DNA of 41,533 nucleotides, from the NCBI GenBank assembly GCA_902766975.1, contig CACXFH010000074.1, forward strand, positions 1 to 41,533, given 5' to 3'. This document shows, in pieces, positions 6,426 through 19,265 of the stretch (position 1 is its first letter; each line of letters starts with the position of its first letter). The stretch is from an uncultured bacterium. GTDB lineage: Bacteria; Cyanobacteriota; Vampirovibrionia; Gastranaerophilales; Gastranaerophilaceae. Below the pieces are notes generated by a model. The model did not search any database. It saw only the letters and a program-made list of their open reading frames with translations, and had not been told where the DNA came from. Made by a program: the position numbers and the translations under genes.

Positions 6426-6878
6426 TTATGTCAGAGCAAATGTCATATCAGCTTCGACACAAATTTTACCGTCAACTGAGCCAACTCCGTGAGCTTTGCA
6501 GATGGGTCCTTTGAGTTTTGTTAATTCAACTGTCATCTCAAATTTATCGCCCGGTCTTACGATATTTTTAAATCTTACCCCATCAACGCCAGCATACAAA
6601 GCAAGTTTACCTTTATTTTGAGGCAACGACAGCAAAACAGGAGCAGAGCATTGAGCCAATGCCTCAAGCTGTAAAACTCCGGGCATAATCGGATTTCCGG
6701 GGAAATGCCCCTGAAAGAATGCTTCATTCATTGTCAAGTTTTTGTAACCTTTTGAATACTTGCCGGGTACGCATTCTGTAATTCTGTCCACCAATAAAAA
6801 CGGATATCTGTGTGGCAACATTTCCATTATTTCCATAATATCCATTGAAACAGTTTCTTCTTTAATTTCTTCTGTCAT
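6426..6878 (-). CDS. fabZ: 3-hydroxyacyl-[ACP] dehydratase FabZ
   Basis: A 150-residue hot-dog-fold enzyme that dehydrates (3R)-hydroxyacyl-ACP in fatty acid elongation. The catalytic His is H23 in LPHRYPFLLVDR and the catalytic Glu is E72 in GVLQLEALAQ, after the conserved GHFPGNPIMPG. Length is normal for the family. A GAAAGGG ribosome site precedes the ATG. FabZ competes with LpxA for 3-hydroxyacyl-ACP, and its position after lpxD and lpxC is the usual lipid A arrangement. Here, however, an S23-type ORF separates it from lpxC, and lpxA does not follow. Confidence 0.96.
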   Translation of the reverse strand: MTEEIKEETVSMDIMEIMEMLPHRYPFLLVDRITECVPGKYSKGYKNLTMNEAFFQGHFPGNPIMPGVLQLEALAQCSAPVLLSLPQNKGKLALYAGVDGVRFKNIVRPGDKFEMTVELTKLKGPICKAHGVGSVDGKICVEADMTFALT

Positions 6879-6904
6879 TTTTTTCCCTTTCTGCTCTATG
6901 TAAG

Positions 6905-6934
6905 GAAGTAAGAAAGTAAGTATGTTAGTAAGAA
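6905..6934 (+). repeat. Left inverted-repeat arm of the S23 element
   Basis: Four-base phased GTAA/GAAA/GTAA/GTAT/GTTA/GTAA repeat. The inner end encodes the last codons and stop of the internal ORF (Ser-Tyr-stop on the minus strand). It pairs imperfectly with 7287-7323. Confidence 0.6.
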
Positions 6935-7275
6935 TTTACAACTTGTTTCCTTAATCCTAATACTAAAGCTTTAATTTTATTATGTTCCTGAATTATATTT
7001 TCTATATTTTGAATATATTTAAGTCTCTGAGCTATTATCAAATGTGTTTCTATTTCAGCAATAGAACCTATTGCAATATCAAGAAATCTTGAAGTGTCTT
7101 TGTATGATGAGCGTGCGCAACCTTCTGCAATATTTGAAGGGATTGATACGGCAGCCCTTTGCATTTGTGAGCTTAACCCATAGGTTTCATTTTTGAAAAA
7201 ACCTGCAGTTAGTTCGTATATATGTATAACAAAGTCAATTGATTGTTTCCACGCTTCAAGTTCTGTATGATGCAT
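6925..7275 (-). CDS. Four-helix bundle protein, S23/IVS-encoded family
   Basis: A 116-residue protein matching the 23S rRNA intervening-sequence (S23) family. Seen: an N-terminal LEAWKQSIDF helix, YGLSSQMQRAAVSIPSNIAEG, the SRFLDIAIGS helix, and a C-terminal helix beginning around LRKQ. The family also includes Avd accessory proteins of diversity-generating retroelements, but no reverse transcriptase or variable repeat is seen here. The molecular function of stand-alone members is unknown, though a nucleic-acid-associated role is often assumed. A GAGGT ribosome site at the edge of the repeat arm precedes the ATG. The gene lies in the same direction as lpxC and fabZ, so it is probably cotranscribed with them. 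Confidence 0.9.
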   Translation of the reverse strand: MHHTELEAWKQSIDFVIHIYELTAGFFKNETYGLSSQMQRAAVSIPSNIAEGCARSSYKDTSRFLDIAIGSIAEIETHLIIAQRLKYIQNIENIIQEHNKIKALVLGLRKQVVNSY

Positions 7276-7286
7276 TATCTGTAACC

Positions 7287-7323
7287 TCTTACTAACTTAC
7301 TCACCTATTTACCCACTTACTTC
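7287..7323 (-). repeat. Right inverted-repeat arm, overlapping the lpxC stop
   Basis: On the minus strand this reads GAAGTAAGTGGGTAA, followed by further GTNA units and GTTAGTAAGA. The first 15 bases (7309-7323) are the last four codons (Glu-Val-Ser-Gly) and stop of lpxC. Confidence 0.6.
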
Positions 7324-8136
7324 TATAATTTTCTCTCTCAAAATCTTTGCTGTCTTGACATGGACTGCATGCCCTGCTTCTTTTGCAATAATTTGGCATT
7401 TTAAATCCAACGGATTTATTCCTATTAAATATAAATCTCCTATCAAATCAAGCATCTTATGCTTAATCGGTTCACAATCAGAGCGCAAATCAACAGAATA
7501 TGTTCCGTCATCCATAAAACCCAAAGTGTTATCAATGTTTGCTCCTTGAGCAAAACCAAGCATCTGATATTTCTTCAAATCACGATAAAACCCAAATGTT
7601 CTGGCTTCAATAATTTCATCCTGATTTTTTGGATTGTAATTCACAAATCGTCTTTGAAGTCCGTTATGTTCATAATTAACCGCATAGGAAATAAAAAGTT
7701 CTTTATCTGGCAAAATTACCAAACTGGTCTTACCGTTTAAATAATAAACAGGCTCAGATACCGTGTATTTTTTTTCTTTCGCAAACAACGGTTTATCGAT
7801 ACCTGCTTTTTTAAAGGCTTCAACCCACGGCTTTGAACTTCCGTCTAATATTGGGACTTCTTCTTCACTCAGACATATATCAACAGAATTGATATGACAA
7901 AATGCAAGAGCCGCCGTCAAATGCTCTGTTAGCATAGCTTTTGATTTTTTATTCCCCAAAACAACACAATGGTCTGTCGCAAGAACATTATCCACATTTG
8001 CAACAAAAGCTTCTTGCCCTTTTACAAAATACCTTATTTGACCGGAATCAGACGGGAATATATTAACCTCGCACGGCTTGTTTTTCATCAAACCGTTTCC
8101 GCTGATTTTTACTTCTTTTTTTAAAGTAATTGCCAT
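7309..8136 (-). CDS. lpxC: UDP-3-O-acyl-N-acetylglucosamine deacetylase LpxC
   Basis: A 275-residue zinc deacetylase, the committed step of lipid A synthesis. Seen: the general base E71 and zinc ligand H72 in LTEHLTAAL, zinc ligands H226 and D230 in HKMLDLIGDLYL, and catalytic H256 in AGHAVH. The N-terminal GxGLHSG motif of most LpxC proteins is altered to GNGLMKNK. The gene begins 3 bases after the lpxD stop. Its last four codons and stop fall inside the repeat arm of the neighbouring element, so the C-terminus was probably altered by insertion. All catalytic residues are upstream of this, so activity is expected. Confidence 0.95.
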   Translation of the reverse strand: MAITLKKEVKISGNGLMKNKPCEVNIFPSDSGQIRYFVKGQEAFVANVDNVLATDHCVVLGNKKSKAMLTEHLTAALAFCHINSVDICLSEEEVPILDGSSKPWVEAFKKAGIDKPLFAKEKKYTVSEPVYYLNGKTSLVILPDKELFISYAVNYEHNGLQRRFVNYNPKNQDEIIEARTFGFYRDLKKYQMLGFAQGANIDNTLGFMDDGTYSVDLRSDCEPIKHKMLDLIGDLYLIGINPLDLKCQIIAKEAGHAVHVKTAKILREKIIEVSG

Positions 8137-19193: not shown

Positions 19194-19265
19194 AGCGGAA
19201 GACGAGACTCGAACTCGCGACAGCCTGCTTGGAAGGCAGGAACTCTACCACTGAGTTACTTCCGC
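19194..19265 (-). tRNA. tRNA-Gly (UCC)
   Basis: A 72-base cloverleaf on the minus strand: acceptor GCGGAAG pairs with CTTCCGC, the D arm includes CTCAGTGGTAGAG, and the anticodon stem CCTGC/GCAGG encloses loop CTTCCAA, giving anticodon TCC for glycine. The T arm is CGCGAGTTCGAGTCTCG, with one non-canonical closing pair. CCA is not encoded; a run of T follows at once, serving as a terminator. Confidence 0.95.

Follow-up and report, generated by a model that had tools for sequence, protein, structure and literature searches.

The 41,533-nt stretch of contig CACXFH010000074.1 analysed here (the window) comes from an uncultured gut bacterium of the Gastranaerophilaceae and carries, between lpxC and fabZ, an open reading frame (ORF) for an S23 protein enclosed by two inverted arms (Table 1). 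We interpret this unit, with a probability of roughly 0.7, as an acquired copy of a mobile family composed of a G-rich arm of tandem 7-9-mers, the S23 gene and a complementary C-rich arm, related to the intervening sequences (IVS) of 23S rRNA but located between the cistrons of protein-coding genes. S23 proteins are widespread and structures have been solved; rRNA IVS have been regarded as curiosities. Should S23 units prove to be mobile elements found in operons generally, a single testable question would cover what S23 does, where rRNA IVS come from and at least part of the puzzle of heptamer repeats in cyanobacteria and other bacteria.

An S23 unit inserted between lpxC and fabZ

A first-pass annotation of the window had proposed an S23-type ORF between lpxC and fabZ, in their direction and flanked by inverted arms; profile matches and arm statistics confirmed this arrangement. 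An lpxC match was obtained in 41 of the 46 genomes of the genus. In all 29 foreign same-genus junctions that were read, fabZ started 8-49 nt after lpxC, with neither S23 nor repeat tracts, and the lpxC of these empty-site relatives was up to 92% identical to that of the window. The lpxC genes of the relatives mostly end IE-I/L-stop or EIK-stop. In the window, the sequence common with the relatives ends at ...AAAATTATAGAA, and V-S-G-stop then follows from the arm; beyond the right arm, the stretch ahead of the fabZ ATG (GCAGAAAGG) is retained. This comparison shows that the S23 unit at lpxC-fabZ is an insertion, as had been suggested, and the relatives have neither the element nor the same lpxC end. 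The arm supplies the lpxC stop codon (7309-7311), but not the last four codons that had been attributed to it: GAA at 7321-7323 is an ancestral codon (...IE-I/L/V... at the end of lpxC in relatives), and the contribution of the arm is consequently three codons and the stop. The stop codon of the S23 ORF (6925-6927) lies within the opposite arm, in agreement with the earlier description. ATAGA flanks the window element and was considered as a target duplication; it was rejected, as the element-less relative L026 has a similar second ATAGA.

The two arms (41 nt each) are 76% complementary. Their pairing score was reached by none of 20000 dinucleotide shuffles, by none of 1088 background pairs with equal geometry in the window and by one of 124 right flanks from other elements. 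The arms are not a single palindrome, but approximate 8-nt tandem units (GTAAGTGG-GTAAATAG-GTGAGTAA-GTTAGTAA in the S23 sense), making pairing possible in several registers. The outer (GAAGTAAG) and inner (GTTAGTAAGA) arm sequences reported initially do have matches, but these are offset from each other by one 8-nt unit and hence in different registers, owing to the tandem-repeat nature of the arms. The left arm is rich in G and in stop codons. In the predicted mRNA fold, a stem of approximately 37 bp formed by both arms encloses the S23 cistron as a loop.

The S23 ORF matched PF05635 (E 1.3e-34, 119 bits against a curated cut-off of 33.8) and TIGR02436 (E 3.6e-35, 120.5 bits against a curated cut-off of 24) along almost the whole of both profiles. 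Its AlphaFold2 (AF2) model (pLDDT 95) superimposed on a solved S23 protein, the four-helix bundle 2gsc, with a template modelling (TM) score of about 0.9. The window protein is an ordinary S23 family member. The ratio of nonsynonymous to synonymous substitution rates (dN/dS) of S23 was 0.03-0.21 in 12 informative sister pairs, indicating conservation as a protein under purifying selection, and the PSNIAEG motif was invariant in an S23 sample across several phyla. We know of no function for S23 proteins. S23 is the sole protein carried by the element; transposase and reverse transcriptase are absent from the unit.

Table 1. Position and composition of the S23 unit and its neighbouring genes in the window.
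Feature	Positions	Strand	Composition or basis
Inserted element	6900..7320	-	about 0.42 kb; boundaries to within a few nt; compared with 29 empty junctions in the genus
Left arm (S23 sense)	7280..7320	-	GTAAGTGG GTAAATAG GTGAGTAA GTTAGTAA GAG and inner GTTACA; inverted repeat
Right arm (S23 sense)	6900..6940	-	C-rich complementary tandem units (TTACTAACATACTTACTTTCTTACTTCCTTAC); inverted repeat
S23 / 23S_rRNA_IVP four-helix-bundle ORF, 116 aa	6925..7275	-	PF05635, TIGR02436, AF2 model
lpxC end supplied by the arm (GTA AGT GGG TAA)	7309..7320	-	lpxC C-termini, 29 empty relatives
lpxC, upstream gene	7309..8136	-	PF03331
fabZ, downstream gene	6426..6878	-	NF000582/TIGR01750

Arms and insertion sites across S23 elements

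The flanks of about 80 of the phylum's S23 loci and of about 50 loci from Bacteroidota, Proteobacteria, Acidobacteria and others were read; an S23 match was present in 163 of 386 genomes of the phylum. Arm pairing was scored in 115 non-redundant elements from several phyla. Left and right arms of the same element paired with a mean score of 24.4, compared to 11.0 (sd 0.33) with permuted partners (z 40.9), 9.9 in shuffled controls and 12.4 in the same-strand comparison. Chance origin of the arms was ruled out by the permutation and by the shuffles of the window element. The best period was 7, 8 or 14 in 88 of 98 arms and 9 in another six, and the left arm contained more G than C in 95 elements (the opposite in 2). 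The units differed widely between elements (GTGAATRA, GTTTATAA, GTAGNTAA, GGCGATAA, GGCACTAA, GTTGAAAG and others), indicating that each element has arms of its own, with the two arms complementary to each other. Tandem arms that vary by copy and remain complementary point to an unusual route for making inverted repeats. Stop codons in all three frames were present in 47 of 59 left arms and in 16 of 59 right arms, counts given without a p-value because the tandem units are not independent.

Genome G180 harbours eight near-identical truncated S23 copies (L105-L112), mostly with a common extra 5' stretch (AACTGACGTTACGCACTTATTGATGTG...); these were omitted from the arm statistics because they have seemingly been amplified within another repeat. 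The tandem repeats flanking S23 were direct, not inverted, at two loci (L054 and L059), and the right arm of a groES-groEL unit (L097) was interrupted by a further, GC-richer insertion.

In the window's family, every placed element was located between same-direction genes: rimP-nusA (21 elements), groES-groEL (9), tyrS-cysE (6), a cytidylyltransferase gene and lpxD (4), lpxD-lpxC (2), lpxC-fabZ (1, the window) and a few other sites. Representatives of the site genes were checked by Pfam; the other names were assigned by reading the sequences. The S23 genes at the three loci of the window's genome and at the loci of 13 relatives occupied differing operon sites, codirectionally. In other phyla, at least 34 of 42 elements had codirectional neighbours on both sides, and none of the 20 loci tested had rRNA beside S23. 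A protein-coding operon site, considered uncommon in the first-pass annotation, is in fact the rule among these elements. The window element itself lies between lpxC and fabZ, and the only Rfam match in the window was an ordinary tRNA gene (19194-19265, - strand).

Elements of the window's family sit close to the upstream stop codon. The left arm began a median of 1 nt (interquartile range -7 to +6) past this stop, with frequent overlap, and the right arm ended a median of 30.5 nt before the next start codon. The mean arm-to-stop distance was 7.7 nt, compared to 13.8 nt under uniform placement in the free space, and none of 10000 simulations reached the observed value. At four loci (L008, L094, L011 and L012) translation of the right arm adds a new N-terminus to the next protein, which is either LpxC or epimerase-like, and at L011 the left arm also encoded the upstream C-terminus. 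Different insertions, bounded by inverted ends of GTCATTCAGAG type, were found at the rimP-nusA junctions L118 and L127, the one in L127 adjoining an apparent arm remnant of an S23 unit; L141 contained a short arm-like remnant only.

Probable movement between sites, and ORF-less copies

Site labels required 12 changes on the S23 tree (the minimum possible is 11), and sites recurred. Two very divergent S23 lineages occupied tyrS-cysE in genus g26 (L096 and L083/L085), and the same was observed at rimP-nusA in genus g27 (L056/L058 and L076/L090). L007, located at the gpmI site, was the sister of L093/L102 at rimP-nusA; the GGCGATAAGACTGC unit was common to all three, and clear homology was bounded by the arms at both ends. 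L099/L100 compared to L101 provided a second case of arms and ORF at a different site. In both cases, arms and ORF appear to have moved together to a new site, as judged between species and not within a strain. Occupancy of rimP-nusA was scattered on the NusA tree of the genus (6 changes, compared to a mean of 6.4 after shuffling), and this junction was mostly empty in the genomes nearest to that of the window (NusA 96-97%). The window S23 clustered with rimP-nusA elements on the S23 tree (96/87). Within the genome collection, its nearest relatives (62% and 61%) came from a Gastranaerophilales genome of the rumen and from a bacterium of goat colon, and both were located between groES and groEL.

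The window's genome (G000; 1.69 Mb in 136 contigs, about 89% complete) has three S23 loci, that is, two copies besides the one in the window, and at least four ORF-less copies. A pattern search revealed repeat tracts without S23, the pattern being weak (18 matches compared to 12 in the reversed control). Four of these tracts form hairpins, about 122-143 bp long, whose arms consist of tandem 8-mers (contigs C18, C131, C100 and C94; loci L225, L244, L243 and L232 respectively). The inner motifs of the clearest hairpins resemble those of the S23 unit on contig C6 (AAGTTCATAT...; CTGAAATGRWCTTA). The C100 hairpin lies between gatB-like and glmS-like genes, while the C94 hairpin adjoins a tRNA. Intervening sequences of rRNA are also known in two forms, with and without an ORF, and the ORF-less IVS of Salmonella type are comparable in length to the ORF-less copies (120-145 bp). 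Both are short stem-loop insertions; the copies described here differ in being located between or beside protein genes and tRNA, and in having inner motifs like those of S23 units.

Mechanism, alternatives and known systems

In a polycistronic mRNA, the arms would pair as a long stem around the S23 cistron, isolating the unit between the cistrons. By analogy with rRNA IVS, this stem is probably cut by RNase III, and a cut between cistrons would leave a usable message for each neighbouring gene. The left arm, which in most copies contains a stop in every frame, can terminate the upstream gene, and the right arm, with fewer stops, can be read into the next one. S23, reported to be a pentamer in Xanthomonas (PMC4990558), is likely to bind this stem, or the stem in the form of single-stranded DNA, which would aid the spread of copies. 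The arms were probably generated or homogenised through templated copying when the element was formed, the synthesis coming from a host polymerase. The initial suggestion of an RNA- or DNA-level mobile unit is supported as to mobility, by comparative genomics of arms and ORF.

Several observations weigh against this interpretation. All the evidence of movement comes from comparisons between species, none from within one strain, and filled and empty sites revealed no consistent target duplication and no fixed terminal motif. The antisense strand is predicted to fold about as well as the sense strand. Arm mismatches comprised 78 G-U and 89 A-C pairs, i.e. there was no G-U excess, and arm changes between sister elements were one-sided in 72 cases and two-sided in 9. 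Base-by-base selection for RNA pairing is thus not seen, suggesting that complementarity was set at the birth of the element or restored by templated copying. Moreover, the Coxiella S23 ORF is seemingly unexpressed and seems to decay (PMC4990558).

The unit might instead be an intercistronic module selected at the RNA level, a host device for regulation or mRNA processing (e.g. uncoupling the neighbouring genes) that spread mainly via homologous recombination and horizontal operon transfer. The position between cistrons of essential, co-directional genes, the strong purifying selection on S23 and the predicted RNA stem are all compatible with such a device. However, we consider it unlikely, as most close relatives lack the unit at the same operon, the arms are private and fast-changing, arms and ORF are found at new sites, and the G-U excess is absent.

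Less probable again is retroelement-like spread, in which S23 would serve, like Avd, as a chaperone of RNA, and the excised RNA would be turned into cDNA by a reverse transcriptase of the cell. The S23 model resembles Avd of diversity-generating retroelements, alone and in the reverse transcriptase complex (4dwl and 8ube; TM 0.66-0.71), having a similar four-helix fold, and the sense-strand orientation in operons suits an RNA intermediate. By contrast, the S23 profile had no match to Avd at the sequence level, and a search for RVT_1 was negative in the roughly 89% complete genome of the window and in six carriers (G005, G016, G031, G032, G033 and G061). It is very improbable that S23 is passive cargo, an ordinary gene between pre-existing simple-repeat tracts that became complementary by chance or slippage: heptameric tandem repeats are indeed common in intergenic regions of cyanobacteria, Xanthomonas and Beggiatoaceae, with no stated link to S23 (PMC4679880, PMC4692102), but the empty lpxC-fabZ sites have no repeat tract and own-arm complementarity far exceeds the same-strand score.

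The S23 unit of the window resembles the S23 IVS of 23S rRNA (Leptospira, Coxiella) in its sense S23 ORF within complementary arms, its sporadic distribution and its length of about 0.4 kb (PMC4990558). In those IVS, the arm duplex is cleaved by RNase III and the fragments stay separate, and in Coxiella heptameric tandem repeats directly precede the S23 ORF (PMC4990558); this was the only report joining S23 with heptamer repeats in the open literature searched. The window-type unit likewise has complementary arms, predicted to pair as a stem around the ORF, but it lies between protein-coding cistrons, its ORF is under purifying selection, its arms vary from copy to copy and a genome can hold several copies. 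In other words, it works like an S23 IVS but fails the defining rRNA location, and it may well define a broader class. No description of S23 units outside rRNA was found in the open-access literature searched, most subscription journals and preprints being outside this scope. More tentatively, a broad and hitherto undescribed class of bacterial mobile elements lacking transposase and reverse transcriptase can be envisaged, in which S23 would mobilise itself and ORF-less partners, the private 7-9-mer ends would arise by templated copying, insertion would target the stop codons that separate co-transcribed genes, and the 23S rRNA IVS would be a specialised niche.

Pairs of miniature inverted-repeat transposable elements and their parent transposons are comparable in that copies with and without an ORF, having inverted ends and inner motifs that are related, coexist in one genome; the S23 units differ in having ends of non-conserved sequence, no transposase and no clear target duplication. 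The short tandemly repeated repetitive (STRR) sequences of cyanobacteria, TAACTGA of Beggiatoaceae and GGGAATC of Xanthomonas are also intergenic tandem repeats, of 7 bp, those of Xanthomonas often occurring as convergent inverted pairs (PMC4692102). Unlike these heptamers, S23 units also have periods of 8 or 9, and every element has a unit sequence of its own.
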